From contig NZ_LT629793.1 in NCBI RefSeq assembly GCF_900105735.1, forward strand, positions 6,944,001 to 7,008,000: 64,000 nucleotides of DNA, read 5' to 3'. Positions 17,232 to 63,986 of this stretch are shown piece by piece. The notes below the pieces were generated by a model. That model had not been told where the DNA came from and did not search any database. It was given only the letters and a program-made list of their open reading frames with translations. The number at the start of each line of letters is the position of its first letter. Positions within the stretch are counted from its first letter, which is position 1. The position numbers and the translations under genes were made by a program. The stretch comes from Pseudomonas yamanorum. GTDB taxonomy: Bacteria; Pseudomonadota; Gammaproteobacteria; Pseudomonadales; Pseudomonadaceae.

Positions 17232-17267
17232 TGGGAAATTTCCTACATATTGGCAGGCGACTTCCTT
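17232..17267 (+). promoter_or_regulatory. RocA/BvgA-type operator upstream of REC-EAL gene 1
   Basis: TGGGAAATTTCCTA (17232-17245) contains a perfect GGAAATTTCC palindrome and a consensus right heptad TTTCCTA. A second degenerate site, CAGGCGACTTCCTT (17254-17267), is exactly 22 bp further on. The first site is centred about 86 bp before the REC-EAL start. Confidence 0.65.
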
Positions 17268-17324
17268 CGCTGAAGGTTACGCCGCCTCGCCATTATTAAG
17301 GCCTTCGAGTCTGCAAAACGGTTG

Positions 17325-18536
17325 ATGACGATGGCCCCACCACGTGTCCTGGTTATGGAAAACCACAGTTCCCAGCGCAGCGCCCTGGTCAATATGTTGC
17401 GACGGCTCGAGGTGCGGGAGGTGTTGCAAGCCAGCAATAGCGAACAGGCAATAATCCAGATGCAGCGCACGGGCGGCGTGGATATCGTGCTTTGCAACCT
17501 GGGGGACAAGGGCTCCGAGCAGGTGGAATTCCTGCGCTATGCCAGCCAGATCGGCCTGGTGCAGGCCGTTGGATTGTCCAATGAGCTGCGCCCGGAGTTG
17601 CGCCGGGCCCTGGGGCATCTGGAGTTTTTATCGGGTGTGCAGCTGTTGGGTATCTTGAGCACGCCGTTGCAACTGCCGGCACTGGATCACTTGCTTAAAC
17701 GCTATCGCGCGGCACCGCCGCCCGTACTCAACCCCGCGAGCCGGGTCCCATTGCCCAGCGAAGAAGAGATCCAACTGGGCCTGGCCCTGGGCGAGTTCCG
17801 CGGCTGGTTCCAGCCCAAGCGGATGATGAACGATGGCAGCCTCGCAGGCGTCGAGGCGCTGGTACGCTGGGAACATCCGGCCCGGGGCTTGCTGCTGCCC
17901 AAGGATTTCCTCGCGGCAGTGCTGGCCTATGACCTGATTGATGAAATGTTCAAGCAACTGCTGGAGCAAGGTCTGAAATTGCTCGCCGTGCTGCATCGCC
18001 AGGGCGCCGTGCTGGAAATGTCGTTCAACCTGCATGCATCCCAACTGGCCCGCCACGGCCTGATCGAGCATATCCAGGGTGCCCTGCAACGCCACGGCCT
18101 GTGCGCTTCGGTGCTGGTGTTCGAGCTGGCCGAAAACGGCTTGCTGGACCTGCAGCCGCCGACGCAGGAAAACCTGCTGCGCCTGCGCTTGATGGGCTGC
18201 GGCTTGTCGATTGATGATTTTGGCGTGGGGTTCTCGTCACTCAAGCTGCTGTGCCAGTTGCCGTTCAACCAGATCAAGCTCGATGGCGACCTTATCCGCA
18301 CCCTCAACGAACCACGCAGTCAGGCCATGGTCGGCAGCACCCTGGCGCTGGCCCGCTCGCTGGACATGAGCCTGGTGATCGAAGGCGTCAGCAACCGGCA
18401 TATTCGCGACGCGCTGATCAGCCTGGGCTGCGAGGTGGGGCAGGGTTTTTTCCTCGCCCGGCCGATGACCGGCCACGACCTGCTGCATTGGCTGGCGCGG
18501 GAAGATGTGCAGCCGTTAAGTTCGCCGGTGGGCTAG
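17325..18536 (+). CDS. RocR-like REC-EAL protein with Asn at the phosphoacceptor site
   Basis: The 403-residue protein has a receiver-like domain (about 1-125) and an EAL domain (about 145-395). In the receiver, the position that is Asp in the two paralogues of this window is Asn (N58 in VLCNLGDKG), so it probably cannot be phosphorylated there. The EAL residues are intact: EALVRWEHP, FNLHASQL, FELAENGLL, SIDDFGVGFSS, IKLDGDLI, VIEGVS, GQGFFLARP. In P. aeruginosa the REC-EAL protein RocR (SadR) antagonises RocA signalling to cup fimbriae. Here the gene sits directly ahead of the RocA- and RocS-like genes. The start is uncertain between ATGs at 17325 and 17331. Confidence 0.85.
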   Translation: MTMAPPRVLVMENHSSQRSALVNMLRRLEVREVLQASNSEQAIIQMQRTGGVDIVLCNLGDKGSEQVEFLRYASQIGLVQAVGLSNELRPELRRALGHLEFLSGVQLLGILSTPLQLPALDHLLKRYRAAPPPVLNPASRVPLPSEEEIQLGLALGEFRGWFQPKRMMNDGSLAGVEALVRWEHPARGLLLPKDFLAAVLAYDLIDEMFKQLLEQGLKLLAVLHRQGAVLEMSFNLHASQLARHGLIEHIQGALQRHGLCASVLVFELAENGLLDLQPPTQENLLRLRLMGCGLSIDDFGVGFSSLKLLCQLPFNQIKLDGDLIRTLNEPRSQAMVGSTLALARSLDMSLVIEGVSNRHIRDALISLGCEVGQGFFLARPMTGHDLLHWLAREDVQPLSSPVG

Positions 18537-18547
18537 GCGGCAAAACT

Positions 18548-18561
18548 TCAGAATTTTCCTA
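18548..18561 (+). promoter_or_regulatory. Weak RocA/BvgA-type operator upstream of rocA-like gene 1
   Basis: TCAGAATTTTCCTA matches the best site TAGGAAATTTCCTA at 11 of 14 positions, with an intact right heptad. It lies 117 bp before the response-regulator start, a position suited to autoregulation. Confidence 0.4.
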
Positions 18562-18677
18562 CACTTCAGTCGTGTTCGTGTAACTTGAGCGAGGCGTCGG
18601 CTGGTCGCTTATCCATCGTTTTGCGTCACAGGTGCTTCTGTCACCGGAGCTTTCCGGCGCGCCCTACAGGAGGTTAC

Positions 18678-19304
18678 ATGTATACCGCTTTGGTTGTGGA
18701 CGACCATCCCTTCATTCGCTCTTCCGTCAAAATGCTGCTCAGCCAGTTTCAGTTCGAAGTAGTCGCCGAGGCCGATAATGGCGCCGATGCGGTGCAACTG
18801 GCCCGGGAGCATGTGCCCGACCTGATCATTCTCGACATCGGCATGCCCAAGCTCGACGGCCTTGAAGTGCTCAACCGCATCGCATCCCTGCGCCTGCCGA
18901 GCAAAATCCTTGTGTTCACCTCTCAGTCGGCACTGTTCTATTCCATGCGCTGCATGAAAGCCGGTGCGGCCGGGTTCATTTCCAAGACGAACGACATGGA
19001 GGAGGTGACCAAGGCGATCAAGGCGGTGATGGACGGCTACACCTTCTTCCCCAACCTGGCCCACAGCTCGGTACGGCGCAGTGATCTGGAAGCCACTGAT
19101 CATGATCTGATCCAGAACCTCTCTGACCGCGAATTGACCATCCTGCAACAACTGTCCCAGGGCTTGACCAACAAGGAAATCGGCGACGCCATGCTGATCA
19201 GCAACAAGACGGTCAGTACCTACAAGACGCGCCTGATCGAAAAACTCAACGTCAAATCGGTGGTGTACCTGGCCGACTTTGCCAAGCGCAACAACCTCAT
19301 CTGA
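18678..19304 (+). CDS. RocA/BvgA-like response regulator (REC-LuxR type)
   Basis: The 208-residue protein has a receiver domain (1-120; phosphoacceptor D53 in ILDIGMPKLDG) and a LuxR-type helix-turn-helix (about 145-205; LTNKEIGDAMLISNKTVSTY). It belongs to the NarL/BvgA group, and its position between a REC-EAL gene and a BvgS-like sensor matches the rocR-rocA-rocS loci of P. aeruginosa, where RocA activates cup fimbrial genes. The ATG at 18678 follows an ideal AGGAGG. Its stop codon abuts the sensor start. The paralogue at 61105-61731 has the same length and a nearly identical recognition helix. Confidence 0.9.
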   Translation: MYTALVVDDHPFIRSSVKMLLSQFQFEVVAEADNGADAVQLAREHVPDLIILDIGMPKLDGLEVLNRIASLRLPSKILVFTSQSALFYSMRCMKAGAAGFISKTNDMEEVTKAIKAVMDGYTFFPNLAHSSVRRSDLEATDHDLIQNLSDRELTILQQLSQGLTNKEIGDAMLISNKTVSTYKTRLIEKLNVKSVVYLADFAKRNNLI

Positions 19305-22300
19305 ATGAACACACTTCTTCGACACGGCCTGCTGGGTTTCCTGTTGCTCTGTGGCCTGGGCAACGCCCTGGCGGCGCCGCAAATGCTCAAGCTGCACGGG
19401 CGTTCCGACGTCAGCGACTACAGTGTGGGCCTCGACGAGGCCGACTGGAGATGGCTGCGCGGCAAAGGCACGCTGGTGCTCGGCTCGTCGGCGCCGGACT
19501 ACTCGCCGTTCAGCATCACCAGCAATCGCCATGACTACGAAGGCATCACGGCCGACTACGCGCAGTTGATGGAGCAGTTGCTGCACGTGAAAGTGCGGGT
19601 GCAACGGTATGCCTCACGCAATGGGGTGTTGGCTGCGCTCAAGGCGGGTGATGTCGATATGCTGGGCAGCTCCAACGGTTTTGAGGCAGCCGACCCGCAG
19701 CTTCAACTTTCCGACGCCTATGCCGAGGATCAGCCGACCCTGGTCAGCCGGGTCGGTGACAGCCAGAACCTCGACCCGGAACTGGCCGGCAAGCGTGTGG
19801 CGATGCTCTATCACTATCTGCCGCCCAAAGCGGTCGAAGACTTCTACCCCAAGGCCAGCTTGCAGCTTTACCCGTCCACCCTCAGCGCCATCGGCGCCGT
19901 GGCATTCGGCCAGGCCGACGTATACCTGGGCGATGCGATCAGCGCCAATTATCTGATCAACCGCAACTACCTGAACAACGTGCAACTGGCCGACTTCTCG
20001 CGCATGGAGGTCAGCAATTTTTCCTTTTCGGTCAAGCGCGACAACACGCGCCTGCTGCGGATTATCAATGCGTCACTGGCGGCGATCCCGGTCACCGAGC
20101 GCCAGACCATCCTGCGCCGCTGGAGCGCCGGGGGGGCAAGCATGCCAGGCCAGCATCCCCTGCATTTCAGTGTCAGTGAACAGCGCTGGCTGGACAAGAA
20201 TCCCCGATTGCGCGTGGCGATTGATGAAGACTTCCTGCCGATGTCGTTCTACAGCGCCGAAGGCGAATTCCGCGGCATCAGTGCCGACGTCCTGGCCAAG
20301 GTGGCCCTGCGCACGGGCTTGAAGTTCGATATCCAGCGGGTGAGTTCGGTGCGCGAGATGATCGACGCCATCACCAGCAACAAGGCCGACCTGCTCATCA
20401 CCATCACCCCCAGCGAGGAGCGCGAAGCGGTCCTGCGCTTTACCCGTCCGTACCTGGCCACGCCCTTTGTCCTGGTCACTCGTACTGCACCGAGCAGCCC
20501 CAATACCTTGGACGATATGCACGGCAAGCGCCTGGCGGTGATCAGCGGTGATTCCAGCCGCGACATGCTGACCGAGCAATACCCGGACATCCGCCTGGTA
20601 GATGCCGACAGCGCCCATGACGCCATGGAGAAAGTCGCCAATGGCGAGGCCGATGCGGCAGTCAATTCGCTGATTACCGCGCGCTATATGATTTCCCGGC
20701 AATACCGTGACCGCTTGCGTATCACCAGCACCGTGGGTGTAACCAACTCGCGCATGGCCTTTGCCACGGCCCGCGGCTCGCTGGAATTGTTCTCGATCCT
20801 GGACAAGGCGCTGCTCAGCATCGCCCCCGAGGAAATGGACGAGTTGACCAATCGCTGGCGCAGCGAAGTGGTGGTAGGCGACAGCTACTGGCTGCGCAAC
20901 CGCAGCGCAATTATCCAGGGCTTTGGGATTGCCGCCGTGTTGCTGGTGACTGCCCTGGGCTGGATCGCCTACCTGCGGATGTTGATGCGCAAGCGCAAGC
21001 AGGCCGAGCAGGCGTTGAGCGATCAGGTTGAGTTCATGCGAGTCTTGATCAACGGCACGCCGCACCCGATCTATGTGCGTGATCGCCAGGGCAAGTTGCT
21101 GATCTGCAACAGTGGTTACCTGGAAGTGTTCCAGGTGGAACGCGAGCAGGTGATCGGCAAGACCGTACTGGACGGTGTGCTGGGCGACCCGGATGAGGCC
21201 GCCGCATATCACCGGGATTACCTGCAAGTGATGGAAAGCGGTGAGGCGCAGTTGCAGGATCGCAGCCTGATCATGCCCGATGGCCGCGTACTGACCATTT
21301 ACCACTGGATGCTGCCGTACCGCAGCAGTACCGGCGAAGTCAGCGGCATGATTGCCGGCTGGATTGATATCAGCGAGCGCCAGCGCCTGCTGGAGGACGT
21401 TCACGCCGCCAATCGCGCCAAGACCACCTTCCTGGCGACCATGAGCCATGAGATCCGCACACCGATGAACGCGGTGATCGGCATGCTCGAGCTGGCGACG
21501 AAAAAGGCTGACCAGGGCGTGATGGATCGCTTCGCGATTGATGTCGCATCCGGCGCAGCACGCGGCTTGCTGGACCTGATCGGCGACATCCTTGACATTG
21601 CCCGCATCGAGTCCGGGCGTCTGTCCCTGAACCCCGAGCGCGCCAACCTGCGGGAGTTGTTGGAGTCGGTGGTGCGCATTTTCGAAGGCCTGGCACGGCA
21701 GAAACAGCTGCAACTGCAACTGGACCTGGATGCCGGCGTCAACCGTGATGTGTTGATCGACCCGCTGCGCTTCAAGCAGATCGTGTCCAACCTGTTGAGC
21801 AACGCCATCAAGTTCACCGCCCAGGGCCACGTGCGCTTGAGTGTGCGAACGGAGGCGGGCAAGGAACAGCTGGGCGTAAGGCTGCAGGTGGAAGACTCGG
21901 GCATGGGCATTGGCGAAGAGGACCAGAAACGCCTGTTCAGCCCCTTTACCCAGGCCAGCAACAATGACCAGTCCGCACGTAGCGGCTCCGGCCTGGGTTT
22001 GGTCATCAGCCGCACACTCTGCGAAATGATGGGCGGGCGACTGACCCTCGACAGCACCTTGGGCCAGGGCACGCGCATCGACGTGAGGCTGGACCTGACC
22101 ATCCTTGAGCCGTTGGCAGACATTGCTCCCGTCGAGGACGAGCCGACAGTAATGAGCCACGCGTTGAACATTTTGGTGATTGATGATTACCCGGCCAACC
22201 GTCAGTTACTGACCCAGCAACTCAACTATCTGGGCCACCGGGTCGAGGATGCCGAGGACGGTGCCCATGGCTTGCGGGCCTGGCGCAACGGGCAATTCGA

Positions 22301-22898
22301 CGTGGTGATCACTGACTGCAATATGCCCCTGATGAACGGCTACGAACTGGCCCGGGCCATTCGTGCCGACGAGGCGGCCCGTGGATTGCCACCGAGCCTG
22401 ATCCTTGGTTTTACCGCCAATGCACAGCCGGAAGAGAAGGGCCGGTGCCTGGCCGCCGGCATGGATGACTGCCTGTTCAAGCCCATCAGCCTCAAGGATT
22501 TGAGCGCGCGCCTGGCAGGCCTGGCAACGGAGCCGGGGAGTGGACACCCAGGATTTGCCGCAGATGACGATATTGACCTGACCAGCGTCGAGCACCTGGC
22601 CGGCGGCAACATTGCTTCGATCAAAAGCTTGTTGGGTGACCTCGCCGCCAGCAATGAGCAGGACATGGCGCGCCTGATGCAACTGTTCACCCGCCACGAC
22701 CTGCAAGGCCTGGCGGACATCGCGCATCGGGTCAAAGGGGGCGCGCGGATCATCAAGGCCCGAGTACTGATCCGCTGCTGCGAAGACCTGGAAGCCGCCA
22801 CCCGACAAGCAGACCCCATGCGACTGACCGAGACAGTGGATGCATTGCATCAACAGATGGAGCAGCTCGGCGAACGGCTGGAGCGCTATCTGGCTTGA
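19305..22898 (+). CDS. RocS/BvgS-like unorthodox hybrid sensor kinase with two periplasmic binding domains
   Basis: The 1197-residue protein has a signal peptide (1-23), two periplasmic SBP_bac_3 (Venus-flytrap) domains (about 50-270 and 295-525), a transmembrane helix (about 536-560), PAS (about 570-700), HisKA with H715 in SHEIRTPMNAVIG, HATPase_c (about 820-935), receiver with D1004 in VITDCNMPLMNG, and Hpt with H1141 in AHRVKGGARI. This is the complete BvgS/RocS layout: a four-step His-Asp-His-Asp relay ending on the RocA-like regulator. The start codon directly abuts the regulator stop. A perfect RocA-type operator begins eight bases after its stop. Ligand unknown. Confidence 0.92.
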   Translation: MNTLLRHGLLGFLLLCGLGNALAAPQMLKLHGRSDVSDYSVGLDEADWRWLRGKGTLVLGSSAPDYSPFSITSNRHDYEGITADYAQLMEQLLHVKVRVQRYASRNGVLAALKAGDVDMLGSSNGFEAADPQLQLSDAYAEDQPTLVSRVGDSQNLDPELAGKRVAMLYHYLPPKAVEDFYPKASLQLYPSTLSAIGAVAFGQADVYLGDAISANYLINRNYLNNVQLADFSRMEVSNFSFSVKRDNTRLLRIINASLAAIPVTERQTILRRWSAGGASMPGQHPLHFSVSEQRWLDKNPRLRVAIDEDFLPMSFYSAEGEFRGISADVLAKVALRTGLKFDIQRVSSVREMIDAITSNKADLLITITPSEEREAVLRFTRPYLATPFVLVTRTAPSSPNTLDDMHGKRLAVISGDSSRDMLTEQYPDIRLVDADSAHDAMEKVANGEADAAVNSLITARYMISRQYRDRLRITSTVGVTNSRMAFATARGSLELFSILDKALLSIAPEEMDELTNRWRSEVVVGDSYWLRNRSAIIQGFGIAAVLLVTALGWIAYLRMLMRKRKQAEQALSDQVEFMRVLINGTPHPIYVRDRQGKLLICNSGYLEVFQVEREQVIGKTVLDGVLGDPDEAAAYHRDYLQVMESGEAQLQDRSLIMPDGRVLTIYHWMLPYRSSTGEVSGMIAGWIDISERQRLLEDVHAANRAKTTFLATMSHEIRTPMNAVIGMLELATKKADQGVMDRFAIDVASGAARGLLDLIGDILDIARIESGRLSLNPERANLRELLESVVRIFEGLARQKQLQLQLDLDAGVNRDVLIDPLRFKQIVSNLLSNAIKFTAQGHVRLSVRTEAGKEQLGVRLQVEDSGMGIGEEDQKRLFSPFTQASNNDQSARSGSGLGLVISRTLCEMMGGRLTLDSTLGQGTRIDVRLDLTILEPLADIAPVEDEPTVMSHALNILVIDDYPANRQLLTQQLNYLGHRVEDAEDGAHGLRAWRNGQFDVVITDCNMPLMNGYELARAIRADEAARGLPPSLILGFTANAQPEEKGRCLAAGMDDCLFKPISLKDLSARLAGLATEPGSGHPGFAADDDIDLTSVEHLAGGNIASIKSLLGDLAASNEQDMARLMQLFTRHDLQGLADIAHRVKGGARIIKARVLIRCCEDLEAATRQADPMRLTETVDALHQQMEQLGERLERYLA

Positions 22899-22906: not shown

Positions 22907-22942
22907 TAGGAAATTTCCTACAAGAACGCGGCACCATTCATA
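22907..22942 (+). promoter_or_regulatory. Perfect RocA/BvgA-type operator upstream of major pilin 1
   Basis: TAGGAAATTTCCTA (22907-22920) is a perfect 14-bp palindrome made of two inverted TTTCCTA heptads. A further half-site ATTCATA (22936-22942) is exactly 22 bp downstream. The centre is 159.5 bp before the pilin ATG at 23073. Confidence 0.75.
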
Positions 22943-23072: not shown

Positions 23073-23621
23073 ATGAACAAGTTTGCGCTTAAAGGTCTGT
23101 TTGCCGCTGTCATCCTCGCCGCTGGTTCCCAGGCTGCCATGGCTGCTGACGGTGAAATCAACTTCGTCGGTTCCGTAACCGACAACACCTGCCCGGTGGT
23201 CGTGACTGACCTGAACGGTTCGGTCGGTGCTGGCGATGTGGGCCTGGGCGACGTGCCCGCCACTTCCCTGGCTACCGTTGGTGCTGTTGCCGGTGGCGGC
23301 GCGTTCTCCCTGACTATTGACACTAACGCCCCAGGTTGCAGCGTCACCGGCAAGAGCGCCGTGGTCAAGTTCCTGTCCCTGAGCGGCACTGCCGGCGCCA
23401 GCGGCCAGTGGATCGGCATCACCCCAGACGCCGGTCACGCCACCAACGTTGCGGTACAGATCAAGGACGCCACGGACAGGGACGTGCAACTGGGCCTGGA
23501 ATCGGCTCCGTACCTGGACCTGACCCAACCGCTGCGCTTCACCGCCAACTACATCGCTACCGGCATTGCGACCTCCGGCCCGGCCAACGCCAAGGCTGCG
23601 TTCACCGTCGAGTACCAGTAA
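23073..23621 (+). CDS. Fimbrial major subunit, locus 1 (chaperone-usher pilin)
   Basis: The 182-residue protein has a signal peptide (1-25, ending AAMAA), a cysteine pair (C40 and C89) as in type 1 pilins, an alternating hydrophobic N-terminal strand (EINFVGSVTDNT) for donor-strand exchange, and the C-terminal beta-zipper ending FTVEYQ. It is the first gene of the fimbrial operon, as expected for the main shaft subunit. It is followed by a hairpin and then the chaperone gene. It resembles Cup-type pilins of Pseudomonas. I cannot assign it to CupB, CupC or another named type by eye. Confidence 0.9.
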   Translation: MNKFALKGLFAAVILAAGSQAAMAADGEINFVGSVTDNTCPVVVTDLNGSVGAGDVGLGDVPATSLATVGAVAGGGAFSLTIDTNAPGCSVTGKSAVVKFLSLSGTAGASGQWIGITPDAGHATNVAVQIKDATDRDVQLGLESAPYLDLTQPLRFTANYIATGIATSGPANAKAAFTVEYQ

Positions 23622-23634
23622 GCCCTGTTGATGC

Positions 23635-23663
23635 GCCGCTGCAGCGCTGAAGCGCGCAGCGGC
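23635..23663 (+). other. Hairpin between pilin and chaperone genes, locus 1
   Basis: GCCGCTGC (23635-23642) and GCAGCGGC (23656-23663) form a perfect 8-bp GC stem. There is no U tract after it, so it is more likely an mRNA-stability or partial-attenuation element than a full terminator. Locus 2 has a hairpin in the same place. Confidence 0.5.
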
Positions 23664-23696
23664 CATCCCCTCGCTCACGGCAAGAGGATGATCGAA

Positions 23697-24425
23697 ATGA
23701 ACGTTTCCCCCTTCAAGAAGGCATCGGCCCTGGCGCTGTTGCTCAGTACTGCGCTGCTCAGCACGGCCAGCCAGGCCGGTGTGATGCTCGGCGGCACGCG
23801 GATCGTGTTCGACGGCAACAAACGCGACGCGTCGATCACCGTCAGCAACACCACGGCGCAGCCGTACATGGTGCAGACCTGGGTCAACACCGAAGCCGAT
23901 GACATGACCACCGCCACGCCCTTTGTGTCGACGCCGCCGCTGTTCCGCCTGGACCCGCGCAAAGAGCAAATGGTGCGAATCCAGAAAGTCGCCGGCAACC
24001 TGCCGAGCGACCGTGAATCGGTGTTCTATTTCAACGCCCAGGAAATCCCGGTGGCCAGCGAAGGCAACGCCAATACGCTGAAGATTGCCATGCGCACCCG
24101 CGTCAAATTGTTCTATCGCCCGGCCGGTCTCAAGGGCAATGCGATGGAAGCACCGTCGCAGCTGACCTGGAGCCTCGCGCAGGAACAGGGCAGGGCCGTG
24201 CTAGTGGTCAATAACCCGTCGCCGTTCCATATCTCGTTCATTGGCGTGACTGCCAAGTCTGCCGGCCAGAGCGTCGAGGTCAACGAGCCGACGATGGTCG
24301 CGCCGATGAGCAGCCAGCGTTATCCGCTGCCGGGCTTCAAAGGCACAACCGGCGAAGTGGTGTTCTCGGCCATCAATGATTACGGCGGCTACAGCGAGCC
24401 GCAGACCGTGCCACTGAACCGCTGA
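23697..24425 (+). CDS. Periplasmic fimbrial chaperone, locus 1
   Basis: The 242-residue PapD-like protein has a signal peptide (to about residue 25), the N-terminal GVMLGGTRIVFDG with the family arginine, the chaperone signature ESVFYFNAQEIP, and KLFYRP with the conserved lysine that caps pilin C-termini. It would fold and escort pilins to the usher. I chose the ATG at 23697, which has AAGAGG nine bases upstream, over longer in-frame starts whose extra residues do not look like a signal peptide. Confidence 0.9.
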   Translation: MNVSPFKKASALALLLSTALLSTASQAGVMLGGTRIVFDGNKRDASITVSNTTAQPYMVQTWVNTEADDMTTATPFVSTPPLFRLDPRKEQMVRIQKVAGNLPSDRESVFYFNAQEIPVASEGNANTLKIAMRTRVKLFYRPAGLKGNAMEAPSQLTWSLAQEQGRAVLVVNNPSPFHISFIGVTAKSAGQSVEVNEPTMVAPMSSQRYPLPGFKGTTGEVVFSAINDYGGYSEPQTVPLNR

Positions 24426-54185: not shown

Positions 54186-54212
54186 GTTCGCCTACAAGAT
54201 TGACGTGAAAAA

Positions 54213-55033: not shown

Positions 55034-57622
55034 ATGAAAAATGGAACCCGGGAATCAGCACTTAAACGATTACTGTTGTCAGCCTTGGCATTGCTTCTGG
55101 TAGGCCCCGCTTTTTCTGCGCGAGCAGACAACTATTTCAATCCTCGATTCCTGTCCGATGATCCTGCATCAGTCGCGGATCTGTCCGGCTTTGAAAAAGG
55201 CCTGGAGGCGCCTCCCGGCACTTACCGCGTCGACATCTATATGAACGATGGGTACATGGCGACCCGGGATGTTGCCTTTAATAAAAGCGCTGATGGGCAG
55301 AAACTGGAACCGTGCCTGACGCGTTCCCAATTGTCTTCCTTTGGCGTCAATACGCTCGCATTGCCCGATGTCGTCGCCATGAAGAGCAGCGCCTGTGTTC
55401 CATTCACCCGGTTTATCAATGATGCGTCCAGCCGATTTGACGTTGGTCTGCAACGCTTGTACCTCAGCGTTCCCCAGGCATTCATGGGTAGCCAGGCCCG
55501 TGGGTATATTTCGCCAGATCTATGGGATGACGGCATTACCGCGGGATTGCTCAATTACAACTACACCGGCAGCGAAGTGCGCAGCGAGCAGGGCGGGGTG
55601 TCCAACTATTCATACCTCAGCCTGCAAAGCGGCCTCAACCTGGGCGCCTGGCGATTAAGGGACACCACTACGTGGAGCTACAGCCACGGCGCGGGCGTGA
55701 CGCAGAACCAGTGGCAACACACCAACACCTATGTGGAGCGGGGCATTTCCTCGTGGCACAGCCGATTGACCCTGGGTGACGGTTTCACCGCTAGCGACAT
55801 TTTCGATGGCATTAACTACCGCGGCGCTCAAATTGCGTCGGACGACAACATGCTCCCGGACAGTCAGCGAGGCTTTGCACCCGTTGTGCGCGGCATCGCG
55901 CGAAGCACAGCCAAGGTTTCGGTGAAACAGAATGGGTATGAAATCTATCAGGCCACCGTGCCCCCCGGTGCTTTCACCATCAACGACATCTATGCGCCAG
56001 GCACCAGCGGCGATTTACAGGTCACGGTTGTAGAGGCTAACGGTTCAACGCAATCGTTCACGGTGCCTTATTCATCTGTGCCGATGCTGGAGCGTGAAGG
56101 CCAACTGAAGTATTCGATGACGGGGGGGCAGTATCGCAGCGGCAATGCGCAGCAACACACGCCGGAGTTTCTTCAGGGCACTGCATTCTGGGGTTTGCCT
56201 CATGACTGGACAGTCTTCGGAGGCACGCAGGTCTCGAACAATTATCACGCCCTGGACATTGGCTTGGGCAAGAACCTGGGCGACCTCGGTGCGATATCGG
56301 CCGACCTGACGGAGGCCCGTGCGACATTGCCTGACGACACTCAACACCAAGGGCAGTCCCTGCGGTTTCTTTACAACAAGTCCATCAACCAGTGGGGGAC
56401 CAACCTGCAATTGTTGGGCTATCGCTACTCGACGAAAAATTTCTACACCCTGGCTGACACGGCATGGAGCCAGATGAGCGGCTTCACGGTGGTCAGCCAG
56501 AATCAACCGGTTCAAATAACGCCGCAAATCACGGATGCCTACAATCTGAACTACAGCAAGCGGGGTCGCTTCCAGGCCACGTTGACGCAACAGGTGGGCA
56601 AGACGTCTACGGTGTATTTAACCGGTAGCCAACAGAGCTATTGGGGAACGGGGCAGTCGGACGAACAACTCCAACTCGGGTACAACAGCACAATCGGAGA
56701 CATCAGTTGGGGGGTGAGCTACAGCCTGACAAAGAGCGCCTGGGCGGACAATAAAGATCAGTTGCTGGCGATCAATATCAGTATTCCTTTTAGCCACTGG
56801 ATGCGTTCAGACAGTCACTCATCCTTTAAAAACACCAATGCCAGCTTCAATACAGCCAGTGATTTAAAAGGTCGGAACACCAGTACGGCGGGGCTCTATG
56901 GCACGCTGCTTGATGATCACAACCTCAGTTACAGCGTGCAAACCGGATACGCCAGTGGTGGTGTCGAAGGCGCTTCGAAAACCGGCAACACTTCTCTGAA
57001 CTATCGCGGCCCCTACGGCAACTCCAATATCGGGTACAGCACCAGTGACAACTACAGCCAGGTGTATTACGGCGTCAGCGGTGGCGTATTGGCGCACGCG
57101 GATGGCGTGACCTTCAGTCAGCCGCTGAACGACACCATGGTGCTGATAAAAGTACCGGGGGCAGAGCATGTCGCCGTCGAAAACCAGACCGGCATACGCA
57201 CCGACTGGAGGGGATATGCCGTGCTCCCGTACGCGACGGATTATCGTGAGAACCGGATAGCCCTGAACACTAACTCGCTGGCCAATAACATTGAATTGGA
57301 AGACCCGATATTAAGCGTCGTGCCGACGCGTGGGGCCGTCGTGCGTGCTGATTTTAAAGCCCGTGTCGGGATGAAAGTCCTGATGACGCTGACCCACAAC
57401 GACAAGCCGGTGCCATTCGGCTCAATCGCCTCATACGACGAGGGCTTGGTGGGGAGCATTGTTGCCGAAGGTGGCCAAGTCTATCTGACCGGACTGTCGC
57501 CGACAGGGCAAGTAAACGTGAAGTGGGGGGACGGTACGAACGATCGCTGTACCGCAACGTACAGCCTGCCGGCCGACAGCCTGGCGCAAGCCTTGAGTTA
57601 TGCCTCGGCGACGTGCCAGTAA
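55034..57622 (+). CDS. Outer-membrane fimbrial usher, locus 2
   Basis: The 862-residue protein has a signal peptide (ending FSARAD), the N-terminal domain (YFNPRFLSDDPASVADL), a plug and pore region with KQNGYEIYQATVPPGAFTI, and C-terminal domains ending ALSYASATCQ. FimD/PapC-like. Compared with the locus 1 usher it is of similar length but clearly diverged, and its DNA looks more A/T rich. It is separated from the chaperone by 128 bases. Confidence 0.92.
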   Translation: MKNGTRESALKRLLLSALALLLVGPAFSARADNYFNPRFLSDDPASVADLSGFEKGLEAPPGTYRVDIYMNDGYMATRDVAFNKSADGQKLEPCLTRSQLSSFGVNTLALPDVVAMKSSACVPFTRFINDASSRFDVGLQRLYLSVPQAFMGSQARGYISPDLWDDGITAGLLNYNYTGSEVRSEQGGVSNYSYLSLQSGLNLGAWRLRDTTTWSYSHGAGVTQNQWQHTNTYVERGISSWHSRLTLGDGFTASDIFDGINYRGAQIASDDNMLPDSQRGFAPVVRGIARSTAKVSVKQNGYEIYQATVPPGAFTINDIYAPGTSGDLQVTVVEANGSTQSFTVPYSSVPMLEREGQLKYSMTGGQYRSGNAQQHTPEFLQGTAFWGLPHDWTVFGGTQVSNNYHALDIGLGKNLGDLGAISADLTEARATLPDDTQHQGQSLRFLYNKSINQWGTNLQLLGYRYSTKNFYTLADTAWSQMSGFTVVSQNQPVQITPQITDAYNLNYSKRGRFQATLTQQVGKTSTVYLTGSQQSYWGTGQSDEQLQLGYNSTIGDISWGVSYSLTKSAWADNKDQLLAINISIPFSHWMRSDSHSSFKNTNASFNTASDLKGRNTSTAGLYGTLLDDHNLSYSVQTGYASGGVEGASKTGNTSLNYRGPYGNSNIGYSTSDNYSQVYYGVSGGVLAHADGVTFSQPLNDTMVLIKVPGAEHVAVENQTGIRTDWRGYAVLPYATDYRENRIALNTNSLANNIELEDPILSVVPTRGAVVRADFKARVGMKVLMTLTHNDKPVPFGSIASYDEGLVGSIVAEGGQVYLTGLSPTGQVNVKWGDGTNDRCTATYSLPADSLAQALSYASATCQ

Positions 57623-57643
57623 TCAAACCAGGATGCTCCAGCC

Positions 57644-58168
57644 ATGAAAAAGTACCTTCGTATCCTGTGCCTGATGCCGTGCCTCGCGAATCAATCTTAT
57701 GCAGCGGACACTAGCATTTCTATCACCGGTTACCTTAAAGACAATTCCTGTTCCGTGTCGGTCGATTCCAAAGACTTTACTGTGGACTTGACGAGCAATG
57801 CGGCCAAACAACTCAATCATGTGGGGACGACGACTGTTCCTGTTCCCTTCACGATAGTCTTTGATAAATGCGGTGGCTCAACGACTGGCGTCAGGGTTGG
57901 CTACAGTGGCACATCAGACAATGACAATATCGCACTGCTTAAAATTGACGATGGCGTTAATGCCGCCAGCGGTATGGGCATACAGATACTGAACAGTGAC
58001 AAACAGGCGATCCCTTTAAACACCGCTGAACAGTCCCTCAGCTGGACGCACCTGATCGCGGGCCAATCAAATACCCTGAATTTTTATGCGCGCCTGATGG
58101 CGACCCATTCCCCTGTGACGGCGGGAGTCGTGAATGCGACTGCCAATTTCACGCTCGAGTTCCAATAA
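57644..58168 (+). CDS. Minor fimbrial subunit A, locus 2
   Basis: The 174-residue protein has a signal peptide (about 1-20, ending QSYAAD), cysteines C36 and C76, and a C-terminal beta-zipper (NATANFTLEFQ). It is a pilin-fold subunit between usher and adhesin genes, probably an adaptor in the tip fibrillum or a shaft minor pilin. The ATG follows the usher stop by 21 bases. Confidence 0.85.
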   Translation: MKKYLRILCLMPCLANQSYAADTSISITGYLKDNSCSVSVDSKDFTVDLTSNAAKQLNHVGTTTVPVPFTIVFDKCGGSTTGVRVGYSGTSDNDNIALLKIDDGVNAASGMGIQILNSDKQAIPLNTAEQSLSWTHLIAGQSNTLNFYARLMATHSPVTAGVVNATANFTLEFQ

Positions 58169-58183
58169 AAAAGGAGGCTGGGA

Positions 58184-58687
58184 ATGAACGCTATGAAGAC
58201 AACCCTGTTAGCAGGATTATTACTGATTGCCGGAATCATCAACGCCCATGCGGCAGACGTGACCATTACGGTCAATGGGCGAGTTGTAGCGCAACCTTGT
58301 ACGGTCTCAACCCCACCGGCAGCCGTTGCTCTGGGAGACCTGTTTGCCGCTGATTTCAGTCAGGCAGGATCAAGTTCAGGCTGGTACCCGGTGACGCTGG
58401 GTTTGACTAACTGCCCGGTGGGAACATCAAGCGTAACAGCGACATTTACAGGCGTCGCTGACGACACCGGCTATTACCAGAACCAGGGCGACGCGCTCAA
58501 TCTTCAGCTGGAGTTGCAGGATACCAACGGCAACAATTTGAATAATGGCAGCTCGACTACCGTCCATGTAGATGAGTCGAAGCAGTCAGCGAGCCTGTCG
58601 CTACAGGTGCGTGCGTTATCCGTTAATGGCAATGCAAAGCAAGGCAGTATTCAAGCCATGATTAACGTTACGTATACATACTCCTAG
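58184..58687 (+). CDS. Minor fimbrial subunit B, locus 2
   Basis: The 167-residue protein has a signal peptide (ending AHAAD), cysteines C39 and C77, and a C-terminal strand (MINVTYTYS). It is a second minor pilin. A strong AAGGAGG lies upstream of the ATG at 58184; an ATG three codons later is also possible. The gene begins 15 bases after the previous stop. Confidence 0.85.
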   Translation: MNAMKTTLLAGLLLIAGIINAHAADVTITVNGRVVAQPCTVSTPPAAVALGDLFAADFSQAGSSSGWYPVTLGLTNCPVGTSSVTATFTGVADDTGYYQNQGDALNLQLELQDTNGNNLNNGSSTTVHVDESKQSASLSLQVRALSVNGNAKQGSIQAMINVTYTYS

Positions 58688-58701
58688 TAAAGGTGTGACC
58701 A

Positions 58702-59610
58702 ATGAAGATGAAAATCAGCGCCGTGCTAGTGCTGTTACTAACCCTGGGGCTTTCAACCAGTGCCAATGCTTTTTTGTGCTATGCGAACGGAGTTATTTCA
58801 GTTCCCGACTCTTCCAACGTCTCCAACATCTATGTAAATCTGGACCCGTCCGTTCAAGTAGGAGGAAATCTCGTCGTCAACCTCGGCGAAAACATCTCGT
58901 GCATGAACTTAGACCCTACCCGCTTTCTCGACCCTGTAGCTATTACTTCCGGCCAGTACACTGGGCCACTCAATAATCTTACAGGCAGCATAAGCTATTA
59001 TGGAACGCCCTATAATTTCCCTATTAACTCAGCCACCAAGACAGTCAACCATACGTGGGGCACGCCCGAGCCATGGAATACCATGCTCTATTTGAAAGTT
59101 ATCGGTGCCAACGCCGCTGGAATCGCTGTTAATGCCGGGCAGATGCTCGCCGTCATCAGAATGACGAAGTTCAACACACCTCCCATCGCAGATGAAATAT
59201 ATACTTGGAATATTTATGCCAATAACACAGTTGTTGTTCCCACGGGAGGCTGTGATGTCTCATCGCACGATGTAATCGTCACCCTTCCTGATTACCCGGG
59301 AACAGCGGCAGTCCCGTTGAACGTGCACTGTGCGCAAAACCAAAATCTGTTCTATTACCTGACGGGCCCGACGACAGACAGCGCCAACACAATCTTCAGC
59401 AATACGGCTTCCATCTCCCCCGCAGCAGGAATTGGTGTGCAGCTATCTAACCGCAATGGCGTGATTGCTACCAACAACAGTATCTCAATGGGTTCAGTAG
59501 GGGTCAGTCCCGTGGAACTTGGGATGACGGCCTCCTACGCGAGGACCAGTGGGCAGGTAGTCGCAGGAAATGTGCAGTCCATTATCGGCGTTACGTTCGT
59601 TTATCAGTAG
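58702..59610 (+). CDS. Fimbrial tip adhesin, locus 2
   Basis: The 302-residue protein has a signal peptide (ending SANAF, residue 23), an N-terminal region with cysteines (FLCYANG, NISCMN) that is probably the binding domain, and a C-terminal pilin domain (about 175-302; GCDVSSHDVIVTLPDY, then GVTFVYQ). Its length and last position in the structural operon fit a FimH-like tip adhesin. The ligand is unknown. The A/T content appears higher than that of the flanking regulatory genes. Confidence 0.83.
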   Translation: MKMKISAVLVLLLTLGLSTSANAFLCYANGVISVPDSSNVSNIYVNLDPSVQVGGNLVVNLGENISCMNLDPTRFLDPVAITSGQYTGPLNNLTGSISYYGTPYNFPINSATKTVNHTWGTPEPWNTMLYLKVIGANAAGIAVNAGQMLAVIRMTKFNTPPIADEIYTWNIYANNTVVVPTGGCDVSSHDVIVTLPDYPGTAAVPLNVHCAQNQNLFYYLTGPTTDSANTIFSNTASISPAAGIGVQLSNRNGVIATNNSISMGSVGVSPVELGMTASYARTSGQVVAGNVQSIIGVTFVYQ

Positions 59611-59680: not shown

Positions 59681-59721
59681 TCGGAAATTTCCGTGCGATA
59701 TGCAGGAAAACGGCTTTCGTA
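59681..59721 (+). promoter_or_regulatory. RocA/BvgA-type operators upstream of REC-EAL gene 3
   Basis: CGGAAATTTCCG (59682-59693) is a perfect 12-bp palindrome. CAGGAAA (59703-59709) lies exactly 22 bp on from the equivalent half-site, and a heptad TTTCGTA follows at 59715-59721. The first site is centred 88.5 bp before the REC-EAL start, close to the spacing in locus 1. Confidence 0.6.
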
Positions 59722-59775: not shown

Positions 59776-60948
59776 ATGATTTCTTTAAGAATCCTCGTAC
59801 TTGAGGATCGCCTGCCACGCCGCAAAGCCATTACTCAGATGTTGGCGGAGCTGGGTGTGCGCGCGGTTTTCCATGCAGCCGAATGTGACAAAGCCCTGGA
59901 CCTCATCACCCGTGCAGAAGGCGTGGACATTGTCATCTGCGACTTGAGCCACGAGAAACGTGGCTATTTCGATTTCCTGTTAGCCGCAGGACGGGCACAC
60001 CTGGTCAATGCGCTGGTTTTAGGCTCGACGCTTGAGCCTCAGTTTTTGCGCGCGGTGGAGTGTATCAATCAGTTTTCACTGCTCAGGCTGATCGGCGTGA
60101 TGGGGCCTGACGCGCCCCTGCATGACTTGAGCTCGATTCTGCGTGATTACATCAAGCACAAAACCTTCGCACCGTTGCTGGCCCCGGACTCCTTGAAGTT
60201 GCCTACCGAGTCCGAGGTTAGAAAGGGCCTGGAAGCGCGAGAGTTCAAGGCGTGGTTCCAGCCCAAGTTCGACTTGCGCACCGGAGCCCTGTGCGGCGTG
60301 GAAGCGTTGGCGCGCTGGGAGCACCCGACCCGTGGCTTGTTACTGCCCGGTGAGTTCCTGCCGGCAGTGCTGGCTTACGACCTGATCGACGAGATGTTCA
60401 AGCAGGTTTTCGCCCAGGGGCTTGACCTGCTGGTTGCGCTGCGTGGACGTAATATCACGCTGCAGGTTGCGTTCAACCTCCACGCCTCGCAATTGGCCCG
60501 TTTCGATTTGGCGCTGCACATCGAAAACGCGTTGATCGAGCACGATCTACCCGGCTGCGCACTGATGTTTGAGTTGGCCGAAAACGGCCTGCTGGATATG
60601 TCGGTGGCCACCCAGAAAAGTTTGCTGTGTTTGCGGCTACTGGGATGTGGCTTGTCCATCGACGATTTTGGCACAGGATTTTCCTCGTTGACGCTGCTGT
60701 GCCAGTTGCCTTTCCAGGAGTTGAAACTCGACAGTTCGGTGGTGCAGGATTTGTCCGACCTGCACAGCAGGGCCATGATGCTCAGCACGATTGCGTTGGC
60801 CCGGGCGCTGGATATCAACCTGGTGATCGAGGGTGTCAGCAGCCAAGAAATACGTGACCAGGCCTTCGCCATGGGCGGGACCTTTGCACAAGGTTTTCAC
60901 TTGGCCAAACCCATGAGTGCACGCCGCTTGAAAGAGTGGCTGGAATGA
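59776..60948 (+). CDS. RocR-like REC-EAL protein 3
   Basis: The 390-residue protein has a receiver domain (about 1-125; D56 in VICDLSHEK) and an EAL domain (about 145-385) with [50 protein letters not shown] and AQGFHLAKP. It is expected to hydrolyse c-di-GMP. It lies between the fimbrial genes and the second RocA/RocS pair, mirroring the rocR position relative to rocA and rocS. The nearest relative in the window is the protein at 17325. Confidence 0.87.
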   Translation: MISLRILVLEDRLPRRKAITQMLAELGVRAVFHAAECDKALDLITRAEGVDIVICDLSHEKRGYFDFLLAAGRAHLVNALVLGSTLEPQFLRAVECINQFSLLRLIGVMGPDAPLHDLSSILRDYIKHKTFAPLLAPDSLKLPTESEVRKGLEAREFKAWFQPKFDLRTGALCGVEALARWEHPTRGLLLPGEFLPAVLAYDLIDEMFKQVFAQGLDLLVALRGRNITLQVAFNLHASQLARFDLALHIENALIEHDLPGCALMFELAENGLLDMSVATQKSLLCLRLLGCGLSIDDFGTGFSSLTLLCQLPFQELKLDSSVVQDLSDLHSRAMMLSTIALARALDINLVIEGVSSQEIRDQAFAMGGTFAQGFHLAKPMSARRLKEWLE

Positions 60949-61104
60949 CTCAGTCAATCTGAAAATCACAACGCGCGAAGGGCAAAATAACCTGCATTGT
61001 TCAGGTGCGGTTGGACTAGACTTTGCCGGTGTAGTCGCTTGCCTCCCTCTACGCCTTCTCGTTTCGTGATCTGTGTCCAGATAAACAGAATAAGTGAGAT
61101 AGAT

Positions 61105-61731
61105 ATGCGCAAGGCGCTGGTAGTGGACGATCACCCGATAGTTCGGGCGACGGTCAAAATGGTCTTGAAACAGGAAGGTTTCGAAACGGTGGTAGAAGCG
61201 GGCGACGGTGCCGACGCCGTGCAACAGGCACGTCAGGAGTTGCCGGATCTGGTGGTGCTGGATATTTCGATGCCCAAGCTCGATGGGCTGGAAGTCATCA
61301 GGCGCATCGTCGATCTGAATATCGCCACGCGAATCCTGGTACTGACGTCCCTGGAAGCAGGTTTGTATCTCAAGCGTTGTATGAGTGCCGGTGCTGCCGG
61401 TTTCCTCTCGAAAATCGACGACCTGGACGACTTGCGTCGCGCTGTCAAAGTGCTGATGTCCGGCTACACGCATTTCCCCAACCTGGCGATCGGCTCGGTT
61501 CGTCGCAGTGACGTCGAAATGAATGAAGCGCGGGTGATCGAAAACCTGTCGGATCGCGAACTGGTGATCCTCAAGCACCTTGCCCTGGGTCTCAGCAACA
61601 AGGAAATCGGCGACTCCATGCTGCTCAGCAATAAAACCATCAGCACGTACAAGACGCGACTGCTGGAGCGCTTTGAAGTGACATCCGTCGTGTCACTTTC
61701 GGAAGTGGCCAAGCGCAACAGTATTATCTGA
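61105..61731 (+). CDS. RocA/BvgA-like response regulator 2
   Basis: The 208-residue protein has a receiver domain with D53 in VLDISMPKLDG and a LuxR-type helix-turn-helix (LSNKEIGDSMLLSNKTISTY). The recognition helix is nearly the same as in the paralogue at 18678, which supports a shared DNA site. Its stop overlaps the sensor start by one base (TGATG). I chose the ATG at 61105 because the receiver fold begins there. Confidence 0.9.
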   Translation: MRKALVVDDHPIVRATVKMVLKQEGFETVVEAGDGADAVQQARQELPDLVVLDISMPKLDGLEVIRRIVDLNIATRILVLTSLEAGLYLKRCMSAGAAGFLSKIDDLDDLRRAVKVLMSGYTHFPNLAIGSVRRSDVEMNEARVIENLSDRELVILKHLALGLSNKEIGDSMLLSNKTISTYKTRLLERFEVTSVVSLSEVAKRNSII

Positions 61732-63881
61732 TGAAATCCGCCAAAACGATTGTTGCTGCGCTGCTGATGGTCGGGTTGCCGATGCTGGTACACGCTGAAC
61801 CGCACATCGCAGGGACTTCCGACTTCGAACTCGACATGGTGTTCCGTACCCAGGGTAAATCCACGCTCTATTGGGGCATGGTGCTGGCAGGGGTGGGTTC
61901 CATCATCTGTTGGCACCTTGCGGTGATGCTGTGGCGACGCAGGGCCGATGACCCGCGCCGGGTCCTGGCAACCTTTGTCGCCAACATGCGCCTGATGCTT
62001 GATAACGTCCCGCGGCCGGTGTTCATCCGCGATCATGAGGGCCGGCTGGTCGCGTGTAACGACAGTTACCTGGACTTCCTTTCCATGGACCTGGACCAGG
62101 TGATTGGCAAGCCAATTACCGAGTTGCAGTTGATGCCGCTGTCCGAGTCCCGGCAGTACCATGAGCATTACCTGCGGGTCGTGCGCGACGGCATCCCGAT
62201 GATCGGCAGCGGTAGCCTGGTGGCGCCCTACGGTGAAACGCTGGCGCTTTTCTACTGGATTTTCCCGTGTTTCAACTCGCGGGGGCGAGCGGTCGGGGTG
62301 ATTGCGGGATGGGTCGATGTCAGCGACCGCGAGCAGTTGATGATTCAGTTGAAGGCCTCGCAAAAAGAAGCGGACGACGCCAACAACGCCAAGACCTTGT
62401 TCCTGGCGACCATGAGCCATGAAATCCGTACGCCCATGAACGCGGTGCTGGGCATGCTCGAAATGGCCACCAAACGCGCCGAGCAAGGCATTATCGATCG
62501 GGTGTCACTGGACATTGCTTCCAGCTCGGCCAACAGTCTGGTGGATTTGCTGGGAGATATCCTCGACATCGTGCGCATCGAATCAGGTCAACTGACGCTG
62601 GCCCCGAAAAGAGCGAATTTGCATGACGAGGTACTCAAGGTCGCGCGCATCTTCGACGGTGTGGCACAGCAAAAATTTCTCGAACTGCAGATTGAACTCG
62701 ACCCCCAGGCCGACTGCGACGTGCTCGTCGACGCCATGCGGGTCAAGCAGGTGTTGTCGAACCTGCTGAGTAACGCGATCAAATTCACGGTTAAAGGCCA
62801 GGTGCGTTTTTTCCTGCGCTGCACACCGGTTGTGGCCGGCTCCGAGCTGGACCTGACGATGAGTGTCATCGACACCGGCATTGGCATCTCGCCGGAGGAT
62901 CAGGCCCTGTTGTTCAGCCCCTTCACCCAAGTCGGCCAACCAGCGGAAGCCATGCGTACGGGCTCCGGGCTGGGCTTGGCCATTTCCCGCAAGTTGTGCG
63001 AGATGATGGGCGGGCAGTTGACCTTGTCCAGTGAGCTGGGGCGCGGTACCCGTATTGATGTTGCGTTGCGCTTGCCAGTCCTTGAGAGCCTTGGTCCGCC
63101 GATCGTGGATTCGATAGCACCGGTAGTGCGTGCGAAACGCTTGAGCGTATTGGTGGTCGACGACTATCCGGCGAACCGCCTGCTGCTTTCCCAGCAGCTG
63201 ACTTACCTGGGGCATGACGTCGGTGATGCGGAGGACGGTGCACATGGCCTGAGAGCGTGGCGCCAGGGTGCGTATGACGTGGTGATCACCGACAGCCATA
63301 TGCCCATCATGAATGGCTACGACCTGGCCCGCGCCATCCGTGACGAAGAGCAGCGTCAAAACTCGAAACCCTGCGTGATCGTAGGCTTGACCGCCAATGC
63401 CCAGCCGGAGGAGAAACAGCGGTGCCTGAACGCCGGAATGGACGATTGCCTATTCAAGCCCATCCGGCTCGGAGAACTGAGTGCCCGATTGACTGTCATC
63501 GAGCCACTGATACATCCGAATGAAGCGCCAATAGCGATGGTGGGGCAGGGGATCAACCTTGACCTGACCTCGCTGATTCAATTGGCGCGGGGCGACGAAG
63601 AGTCGGTGAACACCATCATCAAGAACCTGGCGCTCAGCCTGGAAGAGGACATGGGCGTGTTGATGCAATGCTATGCGAACAAGGACGTCGAAGGGCTGGC
63701 AACGCTGGCACACCGGATAAAGGGCGGCGGCCGGATTGTCGGTGCGCAGAACGTGCTGATTCGTTGTGCGCAGTTGGAGGCGGCCTGTGAAGAGGCGACG
63801 CCTGCCCAACTGACTGCCGCCACCCTGGCCTTGGAGCAAGCCATGATCTCACTGAAAGCGGCCTTGATTGCCCTGGTGTGA
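61731..63881 (+). CDS. RocS-like hybrid sensor kinase 2, lacking periplasmic binding domains
   Basis: The 716-residue protein has a signal peptide-like start (1-22, ending VHAEP), a periplasmic stretch of only about 25 residues, a transmembrane helix (about 46-64), PAS (about 80-205), HisKA with H230, HATPase_c (about 335-450), receiver with D521 in VITDSHMPIMNG, and Hpt with H661 in AHRIKGGGRI. The cytoplasmic half aligns with the 1197-residue sensor of locus 1, while both SBP_bac_3 domains are absent. Sensing must therefore use the PAS domain, the membrane segment or a partner. Four RocA-type sites follow its stop. Confidence 0.92.
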   Translation: MKSAKTIVAALLMVGLPMLVHAEPHIAGTSDFELDMVFRTQGKSTLYWGMVLAGVGSIICWHLAVMLWRRRADDPRRVLATFVANMRLMLDNVPRPVFIRDHEGRLVACNDSYLDFLSMDLDQVIGKPITELQLMPLSESRQYHEHYLRVVRDGIPMIGSGSLVAPYGETLALFYWIFPCFNSRGRAVGVIAGWVDVSDREQLMIQLKASQKEADDANNAKTLFLATMSHEIRTPMNAVLGMLEMATKRAEQGIIDRVSLDIASSSANSLVDLLGDILDIVRIESGQLTLAPKRANLHDEVLKVARIFDGVAQQKFLELQIELDPQADCDVLVDAMRVKQVLSNLLSNAIKFTVKGQVRFFLRCTPVVAGSELDLTMSVIDTGIGISPEDQALLFSPFTQVGQPAEAMRTGSGLGLAISRKLCEMMGGQLTLSSELGRGTRIDVALRLPVLESLGPPIVDSIAPVVRAKRLSVLVVDDYPANRLLLSQQLTYLGHDVGDAEDGAHGLRAWRQGAYDVVITDSHMPIMNGYDLARAIRDEEQRQNSKPCVIVGLTANAQPEEKQRCLNAGMDDCLFKPIRLGELSARLTVIEPLIHPNEAPIAMVGQGINLDLTSLIQLARGDEESVNTIIKNLALSLEEDMGVLMQCYANKDVEGLATLAHRIKGGGRIVGAQNVLIRCAQLEAACEEATPAQLTAATLALEQAMISLKAALIALV

Positions 63882-63909
63882 AATGGGGTCACACCCGATG
63901 GGATGGAGG

Positions 63910-63986
63910 TTCGGAAATTTCCGAATGAGCAGGAAATTTCCATTGAGCGTGTAGGTTTTTTCCAAAGGCCATTAGGAGCAATCCTA
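63910..63986 (+). promoter_or_regulatory. Array of four RocA/BvgA-type operators downstream of sensor 2
   Basis: TTCGGAAATTTCCGAA (63910-63925, perfect 16-bp palindrome), GGAAATTTCC (63932-63941), TAGGTTTTTTCCAA (63952-63965) and TAGGAGCAATCCTA (63973-63986) have centres 19, 22 and 21 bp apart. Near-helical phasing of this kind is known for arrays of BvgA dimers. The controlled gene lies beyond the window end. Confidence 0.7.

Follow-up and report, generated by a model that had tools for sequence, protein, structure and literature searches.

The described regulatory systems closest to the locus analysed here include the Roc systems of Pseudomonas and the BvgA system of Bordetella, in which bvgR is an EAL gene. 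Our subject is a palindromic DNA element that recurs at pilin and REC-EAL promoters in a stretch of 64,000 nucleotides from Pseudomonas yamanorum (contig NZ_LT629793.1, positions 6,944,001 to 7,008,000), called the window below. According to the passages available to us, BvgA binds at Pfha and Pptx as head-to-head dimers spaced 22 bp centre to centre, the proximal dimer abutting the -35; the primary site of Pfha is TAAGAAATTTCCTA, and bvgR is among the BvgA-activated genes (PMC7250471). For P. aeruginosa, the covered parts of one study report that the consensus sequences obtained for RocA1, RocA2 and RocA3 by DNA affinity purification sequencing (DAP-seq) are highly similar, that the three proteins share roc1, cupB, cupC and lepBA as in vitro targets, and that cupC is under RocA1 control (PMC12051241). 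These published motifs contradict a statement of the initial annotation, made from the window's letters, that RocA sites are not well defined in Pseudomonas. In addition, the passages covered describe, for RocA1/RocR and BvgA/BvgR, a topology that the circuit proposed here, with RocA activating an adhesin and an EAL brake together, would share (PMC9331949).

The two roc sets of the window each combine an unorthodox hybrid kinase carrying HisKA, REC and Hpt domains with a NarL/FixJ-type RocA; together with REC-EAL proteins whose EAL residues match RocR, this is the composition of a Roc system. We find that the palindrome is very probably the operator of these RocA proteins and would work as BvgA sites do, such that pilin genes and EAL genes for degradation of cyclic di-GMP (c-di-GMP) would be activated together.

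The operator in the window and in the genome

The operator has the general form TAGGA-N4-TCCTA, usually with CA next, and it is a real, non-random motif. Its core 10-mer, GGAAATTTCC, occurs five times exactly in the window (17234, 22909, 59683, 63913 and 63932). When one mismatch is allowed, eight copies are found; shuffled sequences have 1.73 on average, and none of 100 shuffles reaches eight. Of the three additional matches, one stands before pilin 2 (53406), and the other two, at 5780 and 44905, have no connection with the loci described here. The 14-mer, TAGGAAATTTCCTA, is found six times with up to three mismatches (shuffle mean 0.58, largest shuffle 3). We also built a 70-bp matrix from 33 of the 40 promoters, leaving out those of the own genome, its nearest relative (G048) and PA7, and scanned both strands of the window with it. 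The nine highest-scoring positions all fall at the promoters described below, and the tenth (11672) lies elsewhere; for three of the nine (63952, 63973 and 53404), the best-scoring strand is the minus strand. These scans bear out the initial annotation, which had placed the motif before both pilin genes, before REC-EAL 1 and 3, weakly before rocA 1 and in an array after sensor 2, and at no other gene group in the window: the five exact copies and the nine best matrix positions lie at these loci.

The best matrix score in the window (39.7) belongs to the operator before REC-EAL 1, TGGGAAATTTCCTA (17232..17245), which is followed at +22 bp by a degenerate second palindrome (17254-17267, 9 of 14 matches), a -10-like CATTAT (17291-17296) and the gene itself (17322..18536), all on the plus strand. 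Pilin 1 is preceded by the perfect operator TAGGAAATTTCCTA (22907..22920, score 39.1), which starts at -166 and has a second palindrome at +22 bp (22929-22942, 7 of 14 matches) and a -10-like GATACT (22966-22971), again all on the plus strand. The operator before REC-EAL 3, TCGGAAATTTCCGT (59681..59694, plus strand, score 14.6), starts at -95, and its partner at +22 bp matches at 8 of 14 positions (59703-59716, plus strand). A weak operator, TCAGAATTTTCCTA, precedes rocA 1 (18548..18561, plus strand, score 16.3), and its 14-mer is identical in G048 (L085). At pilin 2 (53404..53417, no strand assigned), a site is indeed present at the usual pilin distance, about -168 from the presumed start methionine at 53572, but it is degenerate: its core GGAAATTTCT (53406-53415) matches at 9 of 10 positions, the 14-mer has five mismatches, and the matrix score is low (11.5, minus strand).

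The array said to follow sensor 2 does contain four operators, but these form the promoter from which a fourth REC-EAL gene would be read (63911..63986, plus strand). Its operators start at 63911, 63930, 63952 and 63973 (spacing 19, 22 and 21), the last two with four mismatches; a -10-like AATAAT follows at 64010, and REC-EAL 4 starts at 64049, 49 bases past the window end. The genes there (L016), namely REC-EAL 4, two pilin open reading frames (ORFs), a chaperone, an usher and an adhesin, form a third fimbrial locus that REC-EAL 4 opens. Sites lie about 156 bp (L016:5810, weak, four mismatches) and about 149 bp (L016:6677) before the presumed methionine starts of its pilins. The usher (L016:8209-10765, window 68209-70765) is open only as three pieces, reflecting either a broken gene or sequence errors.

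Genome-wide, the sites cluster at this fimbrial and EAL region. There are 21 exact copies of GGAAATTTCC in the 7.087-Mb genome, compared with two for the reversed control, and six of the 21 lie within 49.5 kb at this cluster (expected 0.15; binomial P 6e-9). The 14-mer with up to two mismatches occurs 21 times (control 7), and with up to one mismatch four times, three of them in this cluster and one beside an HNH endonuclease gene. Among the other 15 exact 10-mers, 11 are inside coding-looking ORFs (by our own ORF caller; L004 and L012 are doubtful), and the intergenic ones are at L035 (near a sugar transferase gene), L037 (MoxR), L036 and L034. Given these further sites and the third fimbrial locus outside the window, the regulon is not self-contained, contrary to the suggestion of the initial annotation.

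Two observations concern genes of other kinds. A one-mismatch site lies 56 bases from a 237-residue ORF in the own genome (L033:5561) and in G040 and G048 (L252:5682, L257:5191); in the own genome this ORF is the HNH endonuclease gene, and a BRO-like gene flanks the site. Furthermore, type VI secretion system (T6SS) genes of the VasJ/ImpA type have an operator-like site about 150 bp upstream in the own genome (L041:3302) and in PA7 (L231:3679). With up to two mismatches, a site is found in 4 of 13 VasJ upstream regions (shuffle mean 0.02), or in 3 of 12 when the own-genome region, which had given rise to the count, is set aside.

Promoter architecture and conservation

To describe the promoters jointly, we aligned 40 of them on the 14-mer. 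CA is preferred directly after the 14-mer, and the consensus itself recurs at +22, where it matches at 6.88 of 14 positions (mean over shifts 3.50, standard deviation 0.57; next-best shift +21, 5.55). A TATAAT-like hexamer is found at a single position, p46 (2.85 of 6; mean 1.44, standard deviation 0.33). Counted from this -10, from which the transcription start is placed, the palindrome centres lie near -64.5 and -42.5. The second palindrome ends at p22 and, by arithmetic, a -35 element separated by 17 bp from the p46 -10 would occupy p23-28; the second palindrome abuts this predicted -35 position. With gene starts placed by tblastn, the 14-mer begins at -86 to -111 in 24 of 28 site-bearing REC-EAL promoters and at -161 to -168 in 7 of 12 pilin promoters. 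The likeness to inverted TTTCCTA heptads of the BvgA type, pointed out from the outset, holds at the level of letters, since the best window site has one mismatch to TAAGAAATTTCCTA of Pfha.

This arrangement leads us to propose that a RocA dimer would bind the strong palindrome TAGGAAATTTCCTA head to head and that a second RocA dimer would be loaded on the degenerate palindrome abutting the -35, which lies 22 bp further downstream and thus on the same face of the DNA. Dimers near -64.5 and -42.5 would be placed as activators, in the way that BvgA is at Pfha. By turning on pilin and c-di-GMP-degrading EAL genes jointly, RocA would tie adhesion to its own brake, presumably by lowering c-di-GMP. 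A full-text literature search for the motif strings suggests that TAGGAAATTTCCTA is probably absent from the text searched, most subscription papers being outside its coverage. Titles, abstracts and passages on RocA together with BvgA, on the cupC promoter and on binding gave no account of such a promoter architecture, and in the covered parts of PMC12051241 and PMC3083521 we saw neither a promoter geometry nor a comparison of operators between species.

The site recurs in relatives. At a threshold of 1e-30, RocA1 homologs are present in 130 of the 149 genomes of the genus, the own genome among them; for 40 of the listed matches, two of them own-genome paralogs, we took the surrounding 14-20 kb, and from a RocR search with 80 loci we analysed 19 (L125-L143). 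Across 13 close RocA loci, GGAAATTTCC heads the ranking of all 1024 palindromic 10-mers, with 14 copies spread over 6 of these loci and 5 copies for the runner-up; it ties for first in 18 RocR loci (12 copies) and shares fifth place among the 27 other RocA loci, which are mostly paralogs (10 copies). We then counted sites with up to two mismatches within 350 bp upstream of genes, own loci excluded. Specifically, sites precede 24 of 38 REC-EAL and 8 of 12 pilin genes (shuffle means at most 0.033), as well as 21 of 62 rocA and 4 of 53 rocS genes (shuffle means at most 0.067). None of 22 usher and 24 chaperone upstream regions has one (shuffle means at most 0.033). Close pilin 2 orthologs (1e-25) are unusable for conservation, being limited to 3 of the 149 genomes, one of which is the own genome.

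Of the 19 RocR loci, 16 have a site within two mismatches ahead of a rocA gene itself. A genus-wide REC-EAL search (30 loci, own included, overlapping the RocA/RocR set) gave 29 examinable genes, 14 of which have a site in 200 bp. Eight relative genomes contain 32 sites with at most one mismatch, compared with three for the reversed control, and for 21 of the 32 the RocA1 ortholog is no more than 20 kb away (expected 0.2). Among the other 11 are two at an orthologous fimbrial operon of G097 (L248), which has no rocA in the 18 kb examined and retains a site at -164; because this operon carries sites without a nearby rocA, the operator travels with its targets and not with the regulator alone.

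Sites were also seen in two other settings. In G036, a perfect and a one-mismatch site (L259:3948 and 4204) precede the gene for a 1649-residue BapA-like adhesin with Ig repeats, followed by genes of the type I secretion type. A roc-type locus with a three-mismatch site occurs on a contig of a cyanobacterial metagenome-assembled genome (Kaiparowitsia, L142), where it is probably a binning contamination.

P. aeruginosa-type loci were represented by PA7 (G149), whose promoters lie outside the training set. The highest matrix background was 25.4 in 245,482 positions, a conservative maximum because the background included stretches chosen for carrying the motif. The site between rocA1 and rocR scores 36.8, and that before cupC1 scores 25.0, just under the background maximum. 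A NarL-type regulator gene with a RocS-like kinase, taken for rocA2, has a site scoring 27.0, and a REC-EAL/regulator pair, taken for rocR3/rocA3, has one scoring 26.9. Agreement with the P. aeruginosa DAP-seq data, in the parts covered, was judged by target loci and not by motif letters (PMC12051241). Separately, a one-mismatch site precedes a YadA-like trimeric adhesin gene in PA7 (L227:4003).

Regulators, operator variants and rival explanations

The recognition helices of RocA 1 and RocA 2 (SNKTVSTYKTRLIEKL and SNKTISTYKTRLLERF) are nearly equal, as first described, and we infer that two phosphorelays may read one DNA code. Set against a single code is a third RocA/RocS pair of the own genome (L106), whose regulator has an SHKT helix and a variant operator. 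In the SHKT clade, a related operator, within two mismatches of GAGGAAAAGTCCTA, is found in 18 of 18 loci; it begins with G/A, and its core is AAAAGT in 10 of the 18 loci (own copy at C1:595707), compared with AAATTT for the SNKT helix. The best second consensus match is again at +22 (7.22 of 14; +21 gives 6.94), and TA[AT][GT]GT stands at p46 in 18 of 18, p44 being equally good against TATAAT. These comparisons point to one promoter grammar with at least two core spellings.

A site is found in 26 of 38 SNKT RocA loci and in 2 of 20 classed SHKT (Fisher 2e-5), which suggests that this residue may contribute to specificity. We rejected the SNKT/SHKT switch as its sole determinant: the SHKT loci are largely one clade with its own operator variant, one of the two SHKT positives (L091) owes its site to a gene beside an SSKT RocA, and L090, L091, L095 and L097, with Ala, Ile or Ser at this residue, have sites within two mismatches.

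On the EAL side of the proposed circuit, all four EAL proteins keep the RocR-aligned E175, N233, E265, D295, D296, K316, E352 and Q372. At the position of D56, presumably the phosphoacceptor of RocR, Asp is kept in REC-EAL 3 and replaced by Asn in REC-EAL 1 and by Ser in REC-EAL 4. The latter two would be set mainly by transcription, via the operator.

Several results weigh against RocA acting through this operator as proposed. Because Ser replaces RocR E355 in REC-EAL 1 and 3, the activity of these two proteins is only predicted. In the genus-wide search, 15 of 29 REC-EAL genes have no site with up to two mismatches in 200 bp, and at the same stringency 12 of 38 SNKT-type RocA loci have none upstream of the rocA, EAL and pilin genes found. 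The REC-EAL 3 site is not kept in the orthologous cluster of G032. Relatives share ancestry, and site counts are not independent events. In PA7, where accepted sites score 25.0-36.8, the DAP-seq target cupB1 has only weak candidates, such as L224:4808 (score 11.4), centred about 227 bp from the pilin tblastn start, compared with 214 bp reported for PA14; a whole-locus scan of six ShlB-family genes, one of which should be lepB, gave no convincing site (best 10.9). Moreover, the RocA proteins of the window could differ in target choice, as P. aeruginosa RocA1, RocA2 and RocA3 do in vivo according to the covered text (PMC12051241).

If RocA is not the true or main reader, another NarL/FixJ-family regulator, for instance of the RcsB type, could be. 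RcsB boxes are also short inverted repeats with similar half-sites, and the genome encodes several NarL/FixJ-type regulators (a RocA1 search gives eight matches at E <= 1e-30, itself included). We nevertheless consider this improbable, given that rocA itself has an upstream site in most RocR loci, whereas three EAL-usher loci with only a distantly RocA-like regulator (L311-L313; L312 is L290 and L313 is L289) have no operator. Their regulator is 29-32% like RocA2 and appears RcsB-like. Six EAL orthologs (L289-L294) likewise have no operator; they share an inverted repeat of another sequence, TGAGACAATTCTCA (-162 to -164), perhaps the operator of an RcsB-type regulator.

Less probable still is that the sites are relics of duplication of a fimbria-EAL cassette, with no present regulatory role. 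In its favour, the fimbrial loci are paralogs of one another, as are the four EAL genes, and the pilin 2 and REC-EAL 3 sites look eroded. Against this, diverged loci keep the same letters at preferred distances, together with the 22-bp partner and the -10, and in the SHKT clade the operator is present in every locus although the flanks are only 57-68% identical in the six pairs compared. The palindromic, intergenic character of the element in this cluster would also fit a terminator, a repeat element or a modification site; with its A/T-rich core, preferred upstream position, paired -10 and lack of sites upstream of usher and chaperone genes, we regard this as the most remote of the explanations.

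Neighbouring genes and relation to known systems

The remaining features of the window are all on the plus strand. RocA-like response regulator 1, of the NarL/FixJ type (18585..19304), is followed by the RocS/EvgS-like unorthodox sensor kinase 1 (19305..22898), with two SBP_bac_3 domains, PAS, HisKA, HATPase, REC and Hpt, and by fimbrial operon 1 (pilin, chaperone, usher and adhesin, 23073..28048). REC-EAL 2 (28811..30016), downstream of this operon, has no operator of its own; the best candidate within 450 bp has six mismatches. Fimbrial operon 2 (53512..59610) encodes a pilin, chaperone, usher, second pilin-type subunit, a Pfam-less gene product and a FimH-like adhesin. Then come REC-EAL 3 (59776..60948), RocA-like response regulator 2 (60997..61731) and RocS-like sensor kinase 2 (61731..63881), in which a domain search showed no solute-binding domain. 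The best NCBIfam models for the RocA proteins are EvgA and FimZ, both below cut-off, and the PvrR model is the best match of all four EAL proteins, far below cut-off.

A wider reading, which we offer as possible rather than probable, joins these observations: Pseudomonas and Achromobacter may share a Bordetella promoter grammar (a strong inverted heptad, a degenerate partner at +22 and a -10 located 37 bases after the partner start) for adhesins and EAL brakes; small operator-core changes may keep the Roc paralogs of one cell apart; the grammar may reach T6SS (VasJ/ImpA), BapA-like and YadA-like adhesin genes; and aspartate-less REC-EAL proteins may be ruled by transcription and not by phosphorylation. 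The operator and its promoter arrangement give a loosely defined regulon a legible grammar, for which many Pseudomonas genomes can be scanned, and they link the Roc network to a well-studied adhesin switch, BvgA. It is predicted that a burst of pilus expression brings its own c-di-GMP brake. The paralogs also offer a natural set for asking how regulators with near-equal recognition helices keep or share target sites.

PvrR/RcsB-type EAL-fimbria loci, of the cupD type, resemble this cluster in combining an EAL regulator with usher genes. Unlike this cluster, three presumed loci of this type in relatives (L311-L313) do not carry the operator. RclSAR of Pseudomonas capeferrum WCS358 likewise comprises a kinase, a DNA-binding regulator and an enzymatic regulator, and the passages covered do not describe its operator (PMC9331949); the WCS358 RocR locus, which we infer to be rclSAR, has perfect and tandem operators (L130). 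As in the Roc systems of P. aeruginosa and P. paraeruginosa, in the parts covered (PMC12051241, PMC3083521), an unorthodox kinase, a NarL-type RocA, a REC-EAL RocR and cup fimbriae come together. In contrast to P. aeruginosa, two roc sets lie inside fimbrial clusters here, and there are four REC-EAL genes, of which REC-EAL 1 and 4 have lost the receiver aspartate. The likeness to Pfha and Pfim of Bordetella, as far as the source was covered, extends to inverted heptads, 22-bp centres, a proximal site at the -35 and adhesin and EAL-type targets, although Pfha has three dimers and Pptx six, where the promoters here mostly have two palindromes (four at REC-EAL 4) (PMC7250471). The regulator would be a Pseudomonas protein in place of BvgA. 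Altogether, this locus extends a known kind of system; what is new is the grammar of its promoters, the third fimbrial locus, the operator variant of the Roc paralog and the REC-EAL proteins that lack the receiver aspartate.

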